Origin: Acidobacteriaceae bacterium
Lineage (GTDB): Bacteria; Acidobacteriota; Terriglobia; Terriglobales; Acidobacteriaceae
Assembly (NCBI GenBank): GCA_027452245.1
Contig: DAIDGW010000140.1
Coordinates: 1 to 32,005 of the forward strand
Direction of reading: 5' to 3'
Length of the DNA stretch: 32,005 bases
The position numbers and the translations under genes were made by a program. Below, one piece after another: positions 22,535 to 31,411 of this stretch (position 1 is its first letter; the number at the start of each line of letters is the position of its first letter). Below the pieces are notes generated by a model. It was given only the letters and a program-made list of their open reading frames with translations, was not told the origin of the DNA and did not search any database.

Positions 22535-25500
22535 TTACGTCTTCAGCGCCCTGATGCGCTCAGAGACGTCGCGATAATCAATGTTGCTGCCATAGACGTC
22601 CATGAAGTGCTTAAGCGCGGAAGGCCTATCGCCGGCAGTTTCGTAGGCGGAGGCGATTTCGTAATGCAGGGCCGTGCGGGTCTCGCCGTCGATGCCGGGC
22701 ACCGCCAGAGCTTTGTCGTACCAGCGAACCGCAGCTTCCGGCACTCCCTTTTCCAGGAAGCACTGCGCCAGCCATGTGTACGCCTGCATGATCTGCGGAA
22801 AAGCGTGGCCCCGATCGACGGACTGGCAGGCTTTCTGCAGTTCTCCGATTGCTTCGTCGAGCAGGCCCATTTCGCGGAAGGCGATGCCGAGGTTGTAATG
22901 CGTCTCCGGATCCTCGTCGGCGGAGGCGGCGTCGGCCTCAAGGTCCTGCTTGAGTTCGCCGAACATTTCAGCGAGATCCACGCCGGCGTCCTCTCCGAAG
23001 ACGGCAGCTTTGGCGGCGGGAGGCGCTGGCGGCCGAGGAGTTTCGATATGCGGCGCTACTGCTGAAGACGCTGGTACAACGGGCGTGGTCGCAGTGGATG
23101 AAGCGGCCGCTGCCGCGCTCGCAGCCAAAGGAGGCGCGCTGGGAACCGCTGCGGGCACCGCAACATTGGCTTTTGCTGCCACATGAGCAGGCGTTTCAAC
23201 CACAGGAGCCGGCGGTGCTGCTGCGATGGCCTTTTCTATGGGAGCCGATTTCAGGAAATCCTCGCCAAGGGACTGTTCGATATCGGCAACGAACTCGCCG
23301 AGAACGGAACCCTGGGGCGGAGCAGGCTCTGGCGCCTTGCTGTGGGCTGCCGCGGGAGGCGCGGGAGTCTGCGCGACTGGTGCGGGTGCTGCCACCGGTT
23401 TTGCGGGCGCAACAACGCGCGGTGCTGCTTTGGCTTCTGCCGGAGCTGTTCCGGATACGAACCCGTCTCCGAGTTCGGATTCGAGGCCGGCGACAAAGTC
23501 CTTCAACGCCGCAGGTTTTTCTGCAGGAGAGTCCGGGGCCGCGGGAGCCGCGGCTACAGGCTGTGGAGGTTCGGGTTCGACAACGGGTTCCGGAACCGCA
23601 GCCACTTCATGGGGTTGTACTGCATCAGAAGCGGAAACTAACTCTTCGGCAGCAACAGGAGCAGCAGCCGCTTCCGGCTGAGTTTCTTCCTGGACCTGGA
23701 ATTCCTGGACTTCGAACTCGTCCGCCGGAGCTTCCTCGATGGTGATCTCTTCGACCGGTTCGGGCGTGACCGCCATCTCTTCGTCGCCAGGCGTCGTAGC
23801 GGCCTCGACTTCGGCGCGCATCTCAGCGATCTTGGCTTCATCGGTGGTGAGGGTTTGCAGCTTGGCCAATGCGGCCCAGGCTTGTCCCGGCACACCACGT
23901 CCCAGATAAAACCGGATTTCATCCACCGTCTGCTCGACGCGATGCGCATCGGCGGCTTTAACGTCCGCGACCGATTCGGCTTCGGGAGTCTCGGCCACAG
24001 GTGCGGCAGCCTCGCCCTCGACCGTTACGCTATCTTCCCACTCAGAAGAAAGATCGATCTCCTCGGGAACGGAAGCGTCCGCCGATTGCGTAGCAGCGTC
24101 TTCGACGACCGAGAACTCCGGCTGCTCTGCCCTGGCGGCCGATTTTGCAGCAGGCCAGGCAGGTGGCTGGACAGCGGCAGGGTCCTGCGCCGATGGAGTT
24201 TCTTCCTCGGGGAGTTCAATCGAGAATTCTTGCAGGGATTCCTGCTCAGGTTCTGCGGTGGAACCCACAGGTGAGCTCTGCGCCGGAGCAATGATGGCGT
24301 CAATCTTCGAAGAACGTTCTTCGTAGCGGTCCGCCAGCTCTCCATAACGCGTTGCTTCTTCCGGATGCTCCGCTTCCGAATAGATATGCTGCAGGGTGCG
24401 GCAGCAGACCGCGGCTTCGGCGAAGCGGCCGGCACGGGTATGCAATGCGGCGAGGCGCTGATTCAGTCGGAGGTCGTTCGGAGCCTGCGGCAGGGCCGCA
24501 ACCAGCGGTCCGAGCGCCTTGGCCGGCATGTTGTAAGAAATGAATAGTTCCGCGTCGGTGAGTGCGGAGCGCACTGCCATCGCAACTTCATCGGAGTAAT
24601 GCTGATGAATGGCGGGCGAGGTGGCTTCCAGTTCGTCGACAATCACGGCGGCCTCCTCTGCCGTGATCATATGGCCGCCTTGGCTGGAATCCCCAAGCTG
24701 GGCCACGACCTGCTGATAATTCTGCATGTGCAGCGTGTTCTGCGGTTCGAGTGCTGCCAGCTTCTGGTAAAGATCGCGGGCGCGCAGCAGGTCTCCGCTT
24801 TGCACGCTGGCATGGGCCAGCAGTTCTGTTACTTCGCTGATGTGCGTCGTCTCGCCGGCTTTCTGGAACAAATCGAGCAACTTCTCGAGCGAGGCGGGAT
24901 TTTCGCGCACATGACCGATGATCGTGTGCAGGTTTTCCAGGACCTTCTCGGAATTTTCTGCGAGCAAGCGCTCGGCATGCTGATCGTAGACCTGCAACGC
25001 ATTCTCGTACTGGCCCGCCTGCATCAGGGCGTCGGCCAATATCGAGATGGCTGTGAGATCGTTGTGTACCGTCAGCAGTTTGTTGGCGACGGTTCCCGCA
25101 TCGGAGAGACGTCCCACCTGCAGGTAAGCTTTTAAAAGGTCCTTCAGGCCTTCAGCATTCGAGTCCAGGTCGGCGATCTTTTCCAGGGAAGCGATTGCGG
25201 TTTCCGCATCTCCTGATTCCAAGAGATTGCGAGCCTGCATGCTGAGCGCATAAGTGTTTCCGGGATCGAGCGTCAGCATACGCTGTAAGACTTCTTCGGC
25301 GCCGTTGAGCGAGCCGCGCGAACGCATGCTCTCGGCTGCGGCAGTGAAAATTTCCCACGCTTCTTTCTTTTTGCCCAGCCGGACGTAAACTTCCGCCAGG
25401 CGAACTCGCATGTTCGTATTTTCCGGGTCCATTTCGAGGATCTTCTGGAAGATACGAACCGCGTTTTCCAACTCTCCGGCTTTTAGAAATTCCTCTGCGA

Positions 25501-25864
25501 CTTGCAGATATTGCGCGCGGGCGTCGTTGAACAGGCCTTGCTGGGTGTAGAGTTCCGCCAGTTTCAGCAGGTTCTCAAGTGAGGGCTTGAGCTTGCTGAT
25601 TTTTTTGTACATGGCGATGGCTTTGACGGTGAATCCCTGACTGGCGTAGGCGTCGCCGACATTCTTGAAGCAGTCCGTGGCCTTATCGTTGTCGCCGAGG
25701 CGAGCATAGAGATCACCCACGGTGTTGGTGACGGTCAGGTCCTTGGCATCGTTCTTGAGAATTTTTTCGTACTCAGAGATGGCGTTCTGCAGCTTACCCT
25801 GCTGCACATACTTCTCCGCCGCGCTGAGCACTTTTTGTTTGTTAAACCCGAAACCGAACGCCAT
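22535..25864 (-). CDS. Large tetratricopeptide-repeat protein with disordered Ala/Pro/Glu-rich middle
   Basis: An 1109-residue protein with no signal peptide. Residues about 10-400 and 430-530 are TPR helices (for example YVQQGKLQNAISEYEKILKND and the DPENTNMRVRLAEVYVRLGK pattern). Residues about 540-970 are rich in Ala, Pro, Glu and Val and probably disordered, interrupted by a TPR-like island near 650 (VDEIRFYLGRGVPGQAWAAL). A last TPR block follows (about 985-1109), beginning ETHYNLGIAFREMGLLDEAI. Two copies of an FVAxxExxLG-xxF motif occur near residues 788 and 850, with a looser third at about 960 (LAEMFGELKQDLE). TPRs mediate protein-protein contacts, so a cytoplasmic scaffold is likely. 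Similar proteins in Acidobacteria and Deltaproteobacteria are of unknown role. Confidence 0.9.
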   Translation of the reverse strand: MAFGFGFNKQKVLSAAEKYVQQGKLQNAISEYEKILKNDAKDLTVTNTVGDLYARLGDNDKATDCFKNVGDAYASQGFTVKAIAMYKKISKLKPSLENLLKLAELYTQQGLFNDARAQYLQVAEEFLKAGELENAVRIFQKILEMDPENTNMRVRLAEVYVRLGKKKEAWEIFTAAAESMRSRGSLNGAEEVLQRMLTLDPGNTYALSMQARNLLESGDAETAIASLEKIADLDSNAEGLKDLLKAYLQVGRLSDAGTVANKLLTVHNDLTAISILADALMQAGQYENALQVYDQHAERLLAENSEKVLENLHTIIGHVRENPASLEKLLDLFQKAGETTHISEVTELLAHASVQSGDLLRARDLYQKLAALEPQNTLHMQNYQQVVAQLGDSSQGGHMITAEEAAVIVDELEATSPAIHQHYSDEVAMAVRSALTDAELFISYNMPAKALGPLVAALPQAPNDLRLNQRLAALHTRAGRFAEAAVCCRTLQHIYSEAEHPEEATRYGELADRYEERSSKIDAIIAPAQSSPVGSTAEPEQESLQEFSIELPEEETPSAQDPAAVQPPAWPAAKSAARAEQPEFSVVEDAATQSADASVPEEIDLSSEWEDSVTVEGEAAAPVAETPEAESVADVKAADAHRVEQTVDEIRFYLGRGVPGQAWAALAKLQTLTTDEAKIAEMRAEVEAATTPGDEEMAVTPEPVEEITIEEAPADEFEVQEFQVQEETQPEAAAAPVAAEELVSASDAVQPHEVAAVPEPVVEPEPPQPVAAAPAAPDSPAEKPAALKDFVAGLESELGDGFVSGTAPAEAKAAPRVVAPAKPVAAPAPVAQTPAPPAAAHSKAPEPAPPQGSVLGEFVADIEQSLGEDFLKSAPIEKAIAAAPPAPVVETPAHVAAKANVAVPAAVPSAPPLAASAAAAASSTATTPVVPASSAVAPHIETPRPPAPPAAKAAVFGEDAGVDLAEMFGELKQDLEADAASADEDPETHYNLGIAFREMGLLDEAIGELQKACQSVDRGHAFPQIMQAYTWLAQCFLEKGVPEAAVRWYDKALAVPGIDGETRTALHYEIASAYETAGDRPSALKHFMDVYGSNIDYRDVSERIRALKT

Positions 25865-26664: not shown

Positions 26665-28329
26665 CTAGCCCCCATGCGGCACTTGGTTCACGGGTGCTCT
26701 CCGGCTGCCTCTGGACTGCCCAGAGTAGCTGGAGTGCTTGCGAAAGATCACTTTTACTTCCTCGCGCCAGCGCTCGTCGATGCCGACGAACTCCCACTCG
26801 ATTTCGGGAGAGATATAGCGAAGCAGCGTGTCGGTCGCGGGATGTACATGCAGCGCCGGAGCGACGAGGACCAGCCGCGGCTTCTCGGGCGACAACTCGC
26901 GACCGGGAAAATAGGCGAAGCGGGAAAACTCTTCGCGGCTGTGATGCCACTCCACGCGCGCCCAGTAATCAATTCCCTGCAGCGGCAAGTGAATGTCTTC
27001 ATCCGCTTTCAGTTCGATCACGGCGAGCCGGCCATTGTGCGTGACGGCAAGCACGTCAATCATGGCCCGTTCAGCCGCCGAGAACGCCGGTACCTGGGAA
27101 TATACCTGCGATGGGACGAGTTGATCATCAATAACGCTAACGTCGGCAACTACGAGCGACTCCAGCCAGCGTTCGGGATGCATCCGCCACAAAGGATGCC
27201 GTTGCGGACCGCAGGGATGACGACAATCGCGCAACGTCTCCAGCAGCTGTTTGAATAGTGCCTGACTATATTCGTCAAGCGCCCGCCCTTCCGCGCCCAC
27301 TCCGAAGACAATTTCTGGACGGCTGCGAAACGTTCCCGGTTCCGCGACGAGCCGGGCACGCGCAAATTCCAGCCCGCGCCAGCGAAAGCTGATTTCCGTC
27401 GTGCAAGTCACGGCGACTTCGCACTCCGGCAACAGATCCTTGATCGATGCAATCGAATCGGCGAACCGCTCGCGTGCCCCAGTTTCATTGGGGGCATGAA
27501 CTAAGCGCGTCGCTATGTTACCGCGATCGGCGCAGTCGATTTCCATAAGGGAGTCGTCGCGCTCGTTAAGTTCGTACAGTTGCCACTTGGCTGCGGCCTG
27601 GTTCAGATTGGCCATGCGCTCGCGAACCAGCGCCGAGGTCCCCGCCGGAACAAACAACTTCAGTCCATTCACAAGAACTCGGCCGTTCTGTGCCTGGCGG
27701 CAAACGTCCAGCCACAGAATTCCGAACGTGAGAGCGGCATCAATGGAAGCCTGCGTCTCCTGCCGATTCACGCCGAGAACCGCGTACGCACTTTGCCCCT
27801 GCCTCAAGAGTCCGCGAGCGTAGATCGGTCCGAATGATTTCTCGAGATCGACGCCGGTGGTCAGGCGAGTGATGGCGAATCCGCCAAAGTGGCGTTGCAG
27901 AGTTCGCCGGAGGCACTGTTCATAGCTGGCGCGGCCGGCCCGCTTGGCGGACGGCGAGCGGCGGTCGCGCTCGCGGCAGATTTCCAGTTTACTCGGACGC
28001 GATTGCCCCAGCCGCTGCACGGCCAGCCGCAGCGTGCCTTGCTTGACTTCAGCTTCAAGTACGCGTCGAACGGCATTTCTTTCTGCGGACCACAGGTGCA
28101 ACAGGCATTTGTTGTATTCGCCGGATACCGAATATTTCGCGTGTGCCAAATCGAAAGCTACTCCTCCATCTTCGAGCACGACGGCGGCAGAGGCATCGCT
28201 GAGGAATTCTTGGATCTCCCGGGTGAGCGCTTCAGGGGTCATGCCCAGTATTTTCCACAGAAGGGGACCTGCTGTCTGTGACGAATGAACATTGCCTGTG
28301 GAAGACTGTGCGAACCGGTTCAGGTCCAC
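26665..28329 (-). CDS. Unfamiliar protein with C-terminal PD-(D/E)XK (RecB-like) nuclease motif
   Basis: I do not recognise the 554-residue protein as a whole. Its C-terminal region carries a PD-(D/E)XK nuclease pattern: D425 (MIDVLAV), a beta hairpin over NGR, then E439-L-K441 (AVIELKAD), and Q451-x3-Y455 (QGIDYW). The last is the QxxxY helix motif of RecB/Cas4-type nucleases. After it comes a strand-rich tail (PRLVLVAPALHVHP). The N-terminal ~420 residues lack a known motif. A basic segment (about 108-135, many Arg/Lys) could contact nucleic acid. The GTG at 28329 gives the longest form; an ATG at 28242 removes 29 residues. It is convergent with the DinB-fold gene and divergent from tldD. 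A DNA-processing or defence role is inference. Confidence 0.75.
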   Translation of the reverse strand: MDLNRFAQSSTGNVHSSQTAGPLLWKILGMTPEALTREIQEFLSDASAAVVLEDGGVAFDLAHAKYSVSGEYNKCLLHLWSAERNAVRRVLEAEVKQGTLRLAVQRLGQSRPSKLEICRERDRRSPSAKRAGRASYEQCLRRTLQRHFGGFAITRLTTGVDLEKSFGPIYARGLLRQGQSAYAVLGVNRQETQASIDAALTFGILWLDVCRQAQNGRVLVNGLKLFVPAGTSALVRERMANLNQAAAKWQLYELNERDDSLMEIDCADRGNIATRLVHAPNETGARERFADSIASIKDLLPECEVAVTCTTEISFRWRGLEFARARLVAEPGTFRSRPEIVFGVGAEGRALDEYSQALFKQLLETLRDCRHPCGPQRHPLWRMHPERWLESLVVADVSVIDDQLVPSQVYSQVPAFSAAERAMIDVLAVTHNGRLAVIELKADEDIHLPLQGIDYWARVEWHHSREEFSRFAYFPGRELSPEKPRLVLVAPALHVHPATDTLLRYISPEIEWEFVGIDERWREEVKVIFRKHSSYSGQSRGSRRAPVNQVPHGG

Positions 28330-28444
28330 GGAGCACCTGGCGCGGGAAGGGGGCCTGCGAAAGGGTCCGGGATAGGAAGTTACGGTATGGGATAATGAAG
28401 AAGCGCCTTTCGAGTCTTCTACAGCATTGGGGCATCATATTAAC

Positions 28445-29896
28445 GTGGATAAATCTCGTTTCTTCTTCGAACATTACGGCCTGAGCGAGCGCGATCTGGA
28501 GCGGTATCTGGCTGCGGCGCTCTCTGCCGGAGGCGATTACGCCGATCTTTATTTTGAATACCTTTCTTCGACTTCGCTGATGGTCGACGAGTCGATGGTG
28601 AAGTCTGCGTCGCAGGGCATTTCCGCGGGATGCGGCGTGCGGGTGGTGTCGGGCGAGCGCACGGGATATGCCTACACCGACGATCTTTCCTCTGAGCGAA
28701 TCCTGCATGCGGCGCGAACTGCGGCGCTGATTGCCAGCGCTCCGGCAAAGACGCCGGTTGCGGGGTTCCAGAAGTCCGCTGCGCGCAGCCTTTATCCGGT
28801 AGCATTGCCATCAGTCGATGCGGAGATCACGGCTAAGGTGGAACTGATCATGCGGGCGGACAAAGCGGCCCGAGCATACGATCCGCGCATCAAGGAAGTG
28901 CGCGCCAGCTATGCCGACGAGTTGCGGAACATCCTGGTTGTCGCTTCAGACGGCACCTACGCCGAAGATTCCCAGCCGCTCGCGCGCATGAATGTTTCCT
29001 GCATCGCGAAGACGGAGGGCAACTCGGCTCGCGGCAGCGCCGGCGGTGGCGGGCGAGTGGCTCTCGACTTCTTCTTCGGGGATAAGAATCCCGAGTTTTT
29101 TGCGAAAGAGGCCTCACGCCAGGCATTGTTGCAGCTCGATGCCCGCGAAGCTCCGGCGGGAGAGATGGAAGTTGTGCTCGGTCCGGGATGGCCGGGAGTT
29201 CTGCTGCACGAGGCCGTCGGTCACGGGCTAGAAGCCGATTTCAATCGTAAGAAGACTTCGGCGTTTGCCGGACTGGTGGGTAAACGCGTCGCCAGCGAGA
29301 GATGCACAGTGGTGGATAACGGCACGATGCCGTGGCGTCGCGGATCACTGAATGTTGATGATGAAGGCGAGCCAACACAGGAAACTGTGCTCATTGAGAA
29401 GGGCATCCTGAAGGGATATCTCAGTGACAAGCTTTCCGCGCGGCTCATGGGCATTGCTGACACGGGCAATGGTCGTCGCGAAAGTTACGAGCATATCCCC
29501 ATGCCGCGCATGACGAACACGTACATGTTGGCGGGCGAAGACAATCCCGAGGACATTATTCGCTCGGTGAAGCATGGCGTCTACGCTGTGAATTTTGGCG
29601 GAGGCCAGGTCGATATTACCAACGGCAAATTCGTTTTCTCGGCCAGCGAAGCCTACATGATTGAAGACGGAAAGGTGACCGCTCCAATCAAGGGCGCAAC
29701 TTTGATTGGTAACGGCCCGGACGTGCTCACGCGCGTGTCCATGGTCGGCAACGATCTGAAACTCGATGAAGGCGTTGGTACCTGCGGCAAAGATGGCCAG
29801 GCCGTCCCCGTGGGAGTGGGAATTCCGACCTTGAAAGTGGATCGTCTGACGGTCGGAGGCACAGCCAGAAAAGACACCGGCGGGTTCATGCAGTGA
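28445..29896 (+). CDS. tldD: Metalloprotease TldD
   Basis: TldD is the zinc-bearing partner of the TldD/TldE protease, which degrades unfolded peptides and matures certain peptides such as microcin B17. The product (about 483 residues) has the PmbA/TldD N-terminal domain (about 25-220) and the HExxxH zinc motif as HEAVGHGLEADF (H255, E256, H260). Other marks are NGTMPWRRGSLNVDDEG and IPMPRMTNTYMLAGE, plus a Cys-bearing C-terminal segment, VGTCGKDGQAVPVG. GTG 28445 is chosen because the protein then begins DKSRFFFEHYGLSERDLE, as in relatives; a TTG at 28427 would add six residues. The zinc motif is complete, so activity is expected with the partner gene downstream. Confidence 0.94.
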   Translation: MDKSRFFFEHYGLSERDLERYLAAALSAGGDYADLYFEYLSSTSLMVDESMVKSASQGISAGCGVRVVSGERTGYAYTDDLSSERILHAARTAALIASAPAKTPVAGFQKSAARSLYPVALPSVDAEITAKVELIMRADKAARAYDPRIKEVRASYADELRNILVVASDGTYAEDSQPLARMNVSCIAKTEGNSARGSAGGGGRVALDFFFGDKNPEFFAKEASRQALLQLDAREAPAGEMEVVLGPGWPGVLLHEAVGHGLEADFNRKKTSAFAGLVGKRVASERCTVVDNGTMPWRRGSLNVDDEGEPTQETVLIEKGILKGYLSDKLSARLMGIADTGNGRRESYEHIPMPRMTNTYMLAGEDNPEDIIRSVKHGVYAVNFGGGQVDITNGKFVFSASEAYMIEDGKVTAPIKGATLIGNGPDVLTRVSMVGNDLKLDEGVGTCGKDGQAVPVGVGIPTLKVDRLTVGGTARKDTGGFMQ

Positions 29897-29929
29897 GCGT
29901 CGATCCAGGTGTTCAGATTTTTCTGGGCG

Positions 29930-29958
29930 TGTCATCCTGAGCGGAGTCGAGGAGCCCC
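29930..29958. repeat. Possible dispersed intergenic repeat between tldD and tldE
   Basis: The start, TGTCATCCTGAGCGGAG, resembles a repeat I remember as very common between genes in acidobacterial genomes (GTCATCCTGAGCGAAGCGAAGGA-like). Only one copy is visible here. A similar word, AAGCGGAGTGACAG, occurs near 30010-30023 and could be the degenerate other end. Confidence 0.45.
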
Positions 29959-30034
29959 TTTCATCAGCGCAGCTTAGAGAGAATCCTTTACTGAGTTCCG
30001 CAATTCGACAAGCGGAGTGACAGCAATTCTGAAA

Positions 30035-31411
30035 ATGACTATAGTCACCGAAAACCAGACAGCAACCGACCTCAAATCCATCGCTCAGGATCTCGTTGCC
30101 CGTGCTATGAAGAGCGGCGCCACCGCCGCGGAGTGCGTCATTCGCGAAGGCGACGAATTCTCGACGCTTGTTCGCCTGGGACAGATCGAGACCTTAAAGG
30201 AATCGGGATCGAAATCCGTTGGAATTCGGGTCTTTTTTGGCAAGCGCGGCGCCAGCACATACTCCAGCGATTTTTCCCGCGAGGGGCTAGATCGGATGGT
30301 GAAGTCCGCGCTGGAACTGGCAAAGATCACCTCCGAAGATCCTTTTGCCGGAATTCCTGACGCCGATCAACTCGGTCAGCTCACCTGCAATCTCGATCTC
30401 TATCACGAAGATGTTTATTCTTTGCCTGGGCCCGAGCGCATCGACTATGCGCGCCGTGCCGAGAAAGCCGCGATGGATTTCGACGCGCGGATCAAGAATT
30501 CGGAAGGTGGATCGTTTGATGCCGCCACCGGTTGCAAGGTGCTGGCGAACTCACACGGATTCGTCGGCGAATATCGCCGGTCGTACTGCTCGGTGGCTGC
30601 CGTTCCTATCGCACAGAATGATGATGGCGCCATGCAGCGCGATTACTGGTACTCGGTGGCGCGCACCCTGAAGAAACTCGATCCACCGGAGAAAGTCGGC
30701 AAGATTGCGGCGGAACGGACATTGCGCCGACTCGGTGCTAAAAAGGCAAAGACTGCGCAAGTGCCGATTGTGTTCGATCCCATGGTGTCGAGTTCGATCC
30801 TGGAGCACATTTTTGAAGGAGTGAACGGCGACTCCGTTTATCGCGGTGCATCGTTTCTCGCCGGCAAACTAGGACAGAAAATTGCCGGCGACAATGTGAC
30901 CGTGATCGACGACGGCACCATGCCGGGCGGATTTGGTACCAGCCCATTTGACGGGGAAGGCATTCCGACACGCAGAACCATCGTGGTTGAAAATGGTGTG
31001 TTGAAATCTTATCTCCTGAACACCTACACCGCCAAAAAGCTGGGGATGCAGACCACCGGCAATGCTTCGCGCGGACTCGCTGGAACGCCCGGGATTGGCC
31101 CGGGAAATTACTTCTTGCAGCCTGGCCAGAAATCTCCGCAAGAACTGATCGGAGGGATCAAGGAAGGTCTATATGTGACCGAATTTCTCGGCCATGGCGT
31201 GAATCTTGTCACTGGAGATTATTCGCGTGGTGCTTCGGGCTTATGGATCTCGGGCGGAGAATTGACCTACCCGGTGGAAGAAATCACGGTCGCTGGAAAT
31301 CTGAAGCAGATTTTTTTTAATATCTCTGAAATCGCGAACGATCTCGAGTTCCGGGGTTCAGTGGCCGCGCCCACGATCCGCATCGACGGCCTGACCGTCG
31401 GCGGCGAGTAA
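30035..31411 (+). CDS. pmbA: TldE/PmbA-family protease partner
   Basis: The inactive-site partner of TldD in the same heterodimer. The product (458 residues) shares the fold: GVRVF-type strand as SVGIRVFFGKRGASTYSSDFS, a middle region with SYCSVAAVPIAQ, then IVFDPMVSSSILEHIFEGVNGDSVYRGASFLAGKLGQKIA, GTMPGGFGTSPFDGEGIPTRRT and GNASRGLAGTPGIGPGNYFL. No HExxxH is present; EHIFEG stands near where TldD has its zinc site. This is the expected state of TldE/PmbA. The ATG at 30035 is preferred over the GTG at 30017. It follows tldD after a 138-base gap that contains repeat-like sequence, so the two may or may not share a transcript. Confidence 0.93.
   Translation: MTIVTENQTATDLKSIAQDLVARAMKSGATAAECVIREGDEFSTLVRLGQIETLKESGSKSVGIRVFFGKRGASTYSSDFSREGLDRMVKSALELAKITSEDPFAGIPDADQLGQLTCNLDLYHEDVYSLPGPERIDYARRAEKAAMDFDARIKNSEGGSFDAATGCKVLANSHGFVGEYRRSYCSVAAVPIAQNDDGAMQRDYWYSVARTLKKLDPPEKVGKIAAERTLRRLGAKKAKTAQVPIVFDPMVSSSILEHIFEGVNGDSVYRGASFLAGKLGQKIAGDNVTVIDDGTMPGGFGTSPFDGEGIPTRRTIVVENGVLKSYLLNTYTAKKLGMQTTGNASRGLAGTPGIGPGNYFLQPGQKSPQELIGGIKEGLYVTEFLGHGVNLVTGDYSRGASGLWISGGELTYPVEEITVAGNLKQIFFNISEIANDLEFRGSVAAPTIRIDGLTVGGE

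Follow-up and report, generated by a model that had tools for sequence, protein, structure and literature searches.

The locus considered here raises the question of what is encoded by a long reading frame that carries a nuclease-like motif and that, according to the original prediction, could be a lone repair or defence nuclease with a new targeting part. The window, i.e., the whole stretch of acidobacterial DNA that was analysed (32,005 nucleotides), contains at positions 26665..28329 an open reading frame of 554 amino acids from GTG, which had been reported without a strand and lies on the minus strand. The frame is real, but the gene is most likely shorter than the frame. Alignment with relatives revealed an ATG or GTG codon at the position of Met30 (window position 28242) in 41 of 42 cases, the remaining one having GTA, and an in-frame stop at most 28 codons upstream of the equivalent start in 24 of the 42. 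Because of these two observations the true start is most likely at 28242, 29 codons inside the frame as first read, which gives a probable coding sequence at 26668..28242 (minus strand), a stop codon at 26665-26667 (minus strand) and a protein of 525 amino acids (59.2 kDa). Residue numbers below refer to the 554-residue frame unless stated otherwise; the 525 numbering is obtained by subtracting 29. A Pfam search of the window protein returned no family at E ≤ 10, and the NADH-quinone oxidoreductase subunit C (NuoC), a candidate from NCBIfam with an E-value of 0.12, was rejected as a match at chance level. A search of one open-licence library of papers for an earlier description of the nuclease family yielded PMC10140301 as the sole possible case.

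The residues named in the original prediction were located exactly as described: the putative catalytic D425 (D396 in the 525 numbering; 27055..27057), the E439-x-K441 motif (27007..27015) and the Q451-x3-Y455 motif (26965..26979, including the following W456), all on the minus strand. Comparison with 76 aligned relatives, the nearest of which belong to the genus of the window and the most distant to different classes of Acidobacteriota, revealed that D425, K441, Q451 and Y455 are invariant (76/76 each) and that E439 is retained in 75 of the 76 rows. A loss of D, E or K in homologues, which had been proposed as a check, was thus not seen overall. W456 as well as E386 and W388 of the first core helix (E386-x-W388, 27166..27174, minus strand) are also present in 76/76, as is G319. 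The sole row with Ala at the E439 position (L123, from genome G386) has the other motif residues intact; the change is either a sequencing error or natural variation. Sixteen of 506 alignment columns were kept in at least 75 rows, and the probability that five random columns all fall among them is 1.6e-8. The conservation count covered 76 of 174 loci, with near-duplicates left out and the partial locus L141 included. Alignments A1 and A3 comprised 42 of the 54 loci from a pattern scan, after exclusion of partial, frameshifted and over-long rows (L034, L039 and L041 among them), L141 was dropped from A2 and from the tree, and A4 comprised the 64 of 68 rows that were long enough. Identity to the window protein ranged from 22 to 75% across the relatives in A1 and A2. 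The conserved D ... E-x-K catalytic motif supports a place for the protein among the PD-(D/E)XK nucleases.

The window protein was modelled with AlphaFold2 together with 42 relatives, once at full length and once as an isolated C-half (residues 236-508 of 525). The full-length model reached a mean pLDDT of 71.9 and a pTM of 0.40, and its domain arrangement is therefore unsure; the C-half model reached 78.7 and 0.68, respectively. The predicted fold of the C-terminal part, the second check that had been proposed, contains an alpha-beta nuclease core in both models, with the elements in the order helix-strand-strand-strand-helix-strand, i.e., the alpha-beta-beta-beta-alpha-beta order of PD-(D/E)XK enzymes. 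In the C-half model the core is formed by H121-131, E140-147, E160-166, E171-176, H184-200 and E221-227; the Asp of the motif sits on the second strand, and the third ends with E-x-K. VIA-align of this model ranked EndoMS first (5gkj_B, Z 11.9, rmsd 2.3, 108 residues, 22% identity), followed by two further NucS/EndoMS structures (2vld_A, Z 9.9; 5gke_A, Z 9.7), the first other row having a Z of 8.3. Foldseek also returned EndoMS first, at E 2.9e-3, with zero rows at E ≤ 0.001. Rows for acetyl-CoA carboxylase, which also came up in the fold searches, were taken as a common alpha/beta arrangement. The C-terminal domain is predicted to be a NucS-type nuclease; structural and profile matches assign an active-type, NucS-like PD-(D/E)XK domain to residues 346-508 (525 numbering; 26719..27207, minus strand). 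It is preceded in the model by a linker domain with beta strands, which holds the invariant G319 (residues 241-345 in the 525 numbering; 27208..27522, minus strand).

Sequence profiles gave a related picture with a different first rank. The profile of the C-domain searched against the PDB matched Card1 (6wxw) at E 0.0014 ahead of NucS (2vld) at E 0.015, whereas the whole-protein profile gave E-values of 0.084 for 2vld and 0.8 for Card1. When 70 members were scanned singly, the NCBIfam NucS model matched 27 (best E 1.4e-4) and NCBIfam Rpn nucleases 14 (best E 8.6e-4); a Pfam scan of the 70 gave NucS_C in six (best 0.0043) and MmcB-like in two (best 0.0034). Judged by sequence, all of these profile matches indicate nuclease families of this kind, NucS being the commonest. 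Of the label first given to the protein, "RecB/Cas4-like PD-(D/E)XK", the superfamily core stands; the nearest known proteins are NucS/EndoMS by structure and Card1 by profile, not RecB/Cas4.

The 420 N-terminal residues had been said to match nothing. For sequence searches this holds: the profile of the N-half gave nothing credible in the PDB, the best row being TREM-1 at E 0.51. The predicted fold, however, suggests an EndoMS-like N-half. Its first part, residues 1-96 (525 numbering; 27955..28242, minus strand), is predicted to resemble the N-terminal domain of NucS; it was modelled with one helix and seven strands and with a pLDDT mostly of 78-88 in blocks of 10 residues. The NucS N-domain is described in PMC8228993 as a half-closed beta barrel of eight strands and one helix. 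Foldseek of the full model placed EndoMS 5gkj_B in the first row (E 2.4e-5, prob 1.0, TMq 0.16), and VIA-align with the same structure covered model residues 1-229 (Z 9.5, 174 residues, rmsd 16), an rmsd at which the two domains fit EndoMS at best separately. A conserved run of W80, R84, R88 and R89, retained in 60, 53, 57 and 61 of 76 relatives, respectively, recalls the Trp77/Arg44 contacts reported for EndoMS in PMC6829318, as a general likeness and not as a residue-by-residue alignment.

The following middle domain, residues 97-240 (525 numbering; 27523..27954, minus strand), was modelled as a second PD-(D/E)XK-like fold. VIA-align over about 101-237 matched PaqCI (Z 9.5, rmsd 2.7), 2inb (Z 9.2), 2okf (Z 9.2) and NucS 2vld_B (Z 7.6). 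At position 186, the place on the third strand at which the Glu of E-x-K should stand, 72 of 76 relatives have G or A; the preceding strand shows Y170 (53/76) and R172 (68/76) with no conserved Asp. The equivalence of these positions was derived from predicted strands and a weak hhalign alignment, not from superposed coordinates. This middle nuclease fold is predicted to lack the catalytic residues and hence to be catalytically dead. An internal duplication detectable by sequence was rejected: hhalign of 92-240 against 345-505 gave a co-linear match of 125 columns with a score of 14.0 (E 0.13, probability 0.5%), and 16 of 60 column-shuffled controls scored at least as high. The repeat is therefore without sequence support, and the two predicted folds alone favour it. 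Taken together, the N-terminal 240 residues are predicted to form a whole NucS-like unit of a beta-rich domain and a dead nuclease fold. This reading of the N-half comes from predicted structure, because neither the duplication test nor the profile search of the N-half against the PDB supported it by sequence. A new targeting part of a wholly novel kind, as originally proposed, is consequently less supported than a NucS-like N-domain with a dead nuclease fold behind it.

A middle domain that already lacks catalytic residues could also be read as a sign that the whole protein is a degenerate or non-DNA enzyme, its fold being kept for a structural or RNA role. The near-invariance of D425, E439, K441, Q451 and Y455 speaks against this, as a dead domain would not need these residues, and we regard such a role as very improbable. 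More attention is due to the possibility that the targets are not base lesions or mismatches and that the enzyme, for example as a flap or ssDNA nuclease, serves another branch of DNA metabolism (recombination, end processing, competence or replication-fork structures). The matches to Rpn nucleases noted above are to recombination-promoting enzymes; NucS itself was, according to PMC8228993, first identified as an ssDNA-specific nuclease; and DV-NucS, a recombinant protein from Antarctic soil (Dry Valley metagenome), is reported in PMC10140301 to have degraded ssDNA after long incubation. Against these observations stands the N-half, which in its predicted form resembles, weakly, the architecture of mismatch-binding EndoMS, and with it we judge a role elsewhere in DNA metabolism to be rather unlikely.

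The distribution of the gene was assessed in genome samples of increasing breadth. The genome of the window contains one match. In the family sample 277 of 300 genomes had matches (202 of the 208 of high quality), and in the class sample, which includes the own family, 173 of 200 (144 of the 162 of high quality). A gene that matched no Pfam family and remained nameless in our searches is thus near-universal in a large bacterial family and present in most of its class. In the phylum sample the single sequence as query matched 57 of 199 genomes, and the C-domain profile matched 106 of 297, of which 86 were strong (E < 1e-34) and 20 weak (E > 1e-8), the latter being probably other nucleases; 33 of the 86 strong matches belong to the own class, and in the wider phylum the gene is patchy. 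Two to five matches were found in 36 of the 277 matching family rows; those of G064 are pieces of one frame. In genus g64 (G064, G116 and others) one and the same frame gives two separate matches, such as an insertion in the C-domain ahead of the motif would leave. An absence was seen in genus g86 of family f8 (e.g., G306, G314, G328 and G340), where genomes rated complete do not have the gene, whereas other genera of f8 have it.

In a maximum-likelihood tree of 60 members, each of the 11 bacterial families with at least two rows lay on one side of a branch. The number of family changes on the tree was 10, which is the minimum possible, in comparison to an average of 32 in shuffles, none of 200 shuffles being as low. 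Eleven of the 60 rows belong to no group, f65 and f21 are without strong support, and three rows form long branches. The gene has been inherited vertically among Acidobacteriota. A pattern scan retrieved 54 loci, all with acidobacterial or Terriglobia titles, and zero copies were found in viral contigs (searched with one pattern), plasmids and phages.

Within the window the gene is located between a convergent DinB-like gene and a divergent pair of TldD/PmbA-like metallopeptidase genes (28427..31411, plus strand; Pfam PmbA_TldD domains). A relative of the first TldD-like gene was found within 9 kb, mostly adjoining the nuclease gene, at 48 of 54 close loci. The remaining loci of the family had it in 11 of 13 cases; none of the 27 class loci or the 20 phylum loci did. 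Since the association is limited to the family, it looks like inherited synteny rather than a functional partnership. In class and phylum loci the neighbours scanned were varied metabolic or cell-division genes. One neighbour was scanned in each of 10 relatives (eight upstream and two downstream of the nuclease gene), giving matches to a Rce1-like CAAX protease, a ferritin-like protein, DivIC, enoyl-CoA hydratase, DUF4139, thiolase (two) and TruB, and two without match. The gene had been called a lone one in no obvious restriction or CRISPR setting, and none is visible around it. The intergenic region towards the TldD-like gene (28243-28426) contains words that recur in many of 54 upstream regions, taken from the window and from 53 close loci: 34 regions have ATTATCCCA and 32 have GTCACAGAC. 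These words are possible promoter or operator elements of the divergent genes. SOS sites of the forms GAACN4GTTC or GTTCN7GTTC occurred in none of these 54 regions, with the reservation that acidobacterial LexA sites may differ. Elsewhere in the window, a 1109-aa protein with many TPR repeats is encoded at 22535-25864 (minus strand).

These data bear on the defence option of the original prediction, i.e., a single-gene anti-phage nuclease which would cut invading DNA and whose N-half would sense the invader. As many as 66 of 70 members are matched by PADLOC models of the defence candidate PDC-S11, with a best E of 6.9e-9, and the fold matches include Shedu, Card1, Can2 and Avs3. In the window protein, however, the PDC-S11 matches are limited to the nuclease core (24-99 of 379, 15-95 of 358 and 36-98 of 347 positions), and none extends over most of the profile. 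Defence genes are typically mobile, patchily distributed and gathered in defence islands. The gene studied here has instead a tree that follows bacterial families, a family-wide presence, no copy among the viral contigs, plasmids and phages searched, and metabolic and housekeeping neighbours where these were scanned. Vertical and near-universal presence in the family favours housekeeping, and the defence option is in consequence less supported; we consider it quite unlikely, and the protein probably serves DNA maintenance, not phage defence.

The reading we favour, with moderate confidence, is that of a stand-alone, vertically inherited acidobacterial DNA-maintenance endonuclease, predicted to act like NucS/EndoMS. 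Following the chemistry of the superfamily, the N-half would recognise distorted or damaged duplex DNA (a mismatch, a deaminated base or an abasic site), the dead nuclease fold may help structurally or by clamping the DNA, and the live C-terminal site, using K441 and a metal bound by D425 and E439, would cut near the lesion for excision repair. The genome encodes MutS-family proteins (three MutS_V matches; a 933-aa frame gave the best, E 9.6e-89), and hence the role of mismatch repair is not clearly unfilled; because of these proteins the nuclease would be an addition to MutS and not a substitute for it. Should the nuclease indeed be a repair enzyme of the NucS kind, then NucS-type repair also exists in lineages that have MutS.

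A bolder form of the proposal can be drawn from the models. Since each chain is predicted to have a live nuclease fold and a dead one, the simplest bold picture is that of a single-chain NucS pseudo-dimer made of tandem units, the first lesion-binding with a dead nuclease and the second live. At mismatched or deaminated bases such a protein would nick just one of the strands and so provide NucS-type nick-directed repair in Acidobacteriota beside MutS. Dimeric EndoMS cuts both strands, in contrast to the one strand of this picture, and the chain could equally dimerise and cut both. We hold the pseudo-dimer as a tentative and rather doubtful proposal. If true, a natural form with a single chain and a single active site would show a route from a double-strand-cutting mismatch endonuclease to a nickase.

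Among the known systems, DV-NucS is the one that PMC10140301 brings into question. This paper reports that the 58.8 kDa protein (59.2 kDa in the window) cut duplexes at uracil and abasic sites, and that the authors call for active-site mutants. It also describes a "Cluster 2" to which the present family can be likened: some members exceed 500 aa, with an N-terminal extension and a C-terminal NucS-type domain, and are annotated as hypothetical. As described there, Cluster 2 held no UniRef50 node, whereas the family studied here is common in public acidobacterial genomes; the NucS match of DV-NucS (3.5e-6) is stronger than the best PF01939 match of the family (0.0043); and all four DV-NucS loci examined in that paper had a lysophospholipase gene upstream. 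No lysophospholipase gene was found among the eight upstream genes scanned (one per relative), nor among the two downstream genes scanned likewise, which neither shows nor excludes kinship. DV-NucS may be a relative of the nuclease family, likened to it by size and by architecture as described rather than by sequence comparison.

The CRISPR ancillary nucleases Card1 and Can2 share the nuclease superfamily; 6wxw is the best PDB match of the C-domain profile, Card1, which has an N-terminal CARF domain, aligns in the fold searches through its nuclease part, and D425 falls opposite D294 of Card1, which is the position altered in entry 6xl1. They differ from the window protein by their CRISPR setting, and the structural match to 6wxw (Z 6.3) is weaker than that to NucS. 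Shedu SduA has in common the PD-(D/E)XK core (8ps5, Z 6.9), although a Z so low may reflect merely a common arrangement. Unlike Shedu, the gene studied here is vertical, family-wide and outside a defence setting.

The closest likeness is to NucS/EndoMS. The C-terminal RecB-like nuclease domain is of the NucS type (see 5gkj_B above), the spacing of the catalytic residues (D-14-E-2-K) is the same in both, followed by 10 residues to Q in comparison to 11 in 2vld and by 4 to Y in both, and the N-half is predicted from the model to be co-linear with the whole of EndoMS. By membership the window protein is nevertheless NucS-like yet outside the NucS family. None of 149 phylum genomes was over the curated NucS cut-off (NF003270, 216 bits), in comparison to 4 of 14 control genomes, and the C-terminal clamp motif, given in its actinobacterial form as [E/K][L/Y][T/R]LF in PMC8228993, was found in 0 of 76 relatives anywhere in the protein, with looser clamp-like patterns in 3 of 76. 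In PMC10140301, Acidobacteria are named as one of the phyla represented in the large NucS cluster 1, which the count of 0 in 149 does not mirror; models and cut-offs differ between that study and ours. A true NucS in the own genome (G000) was sought with PF01939 and rejected, none matching; 20 of 101 class genomes match PF01939, and the frames listed for these loci do not resemble NucS in length. Such loci (L175-L184) encode NucS_C-domain proteins that do not resemble NucS and illustrate varied NucS-like nucleases in Acidobacteriota. Further differences are the length (525 aa, in comparison to the 250 positions of the NucS model), the co-occurrence of the family with MutS-family proteins, and the two predicted nuclease folds, the first dead and the live one further on, where NucS has a single catalytic nuclease domain after its DNA-binding domain. 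The protein is thus not categorically new: it is built on a NucS-type nuclease, its unusual feature is the predicted architecture, and it is encoded by a core gene of its bacterial family.
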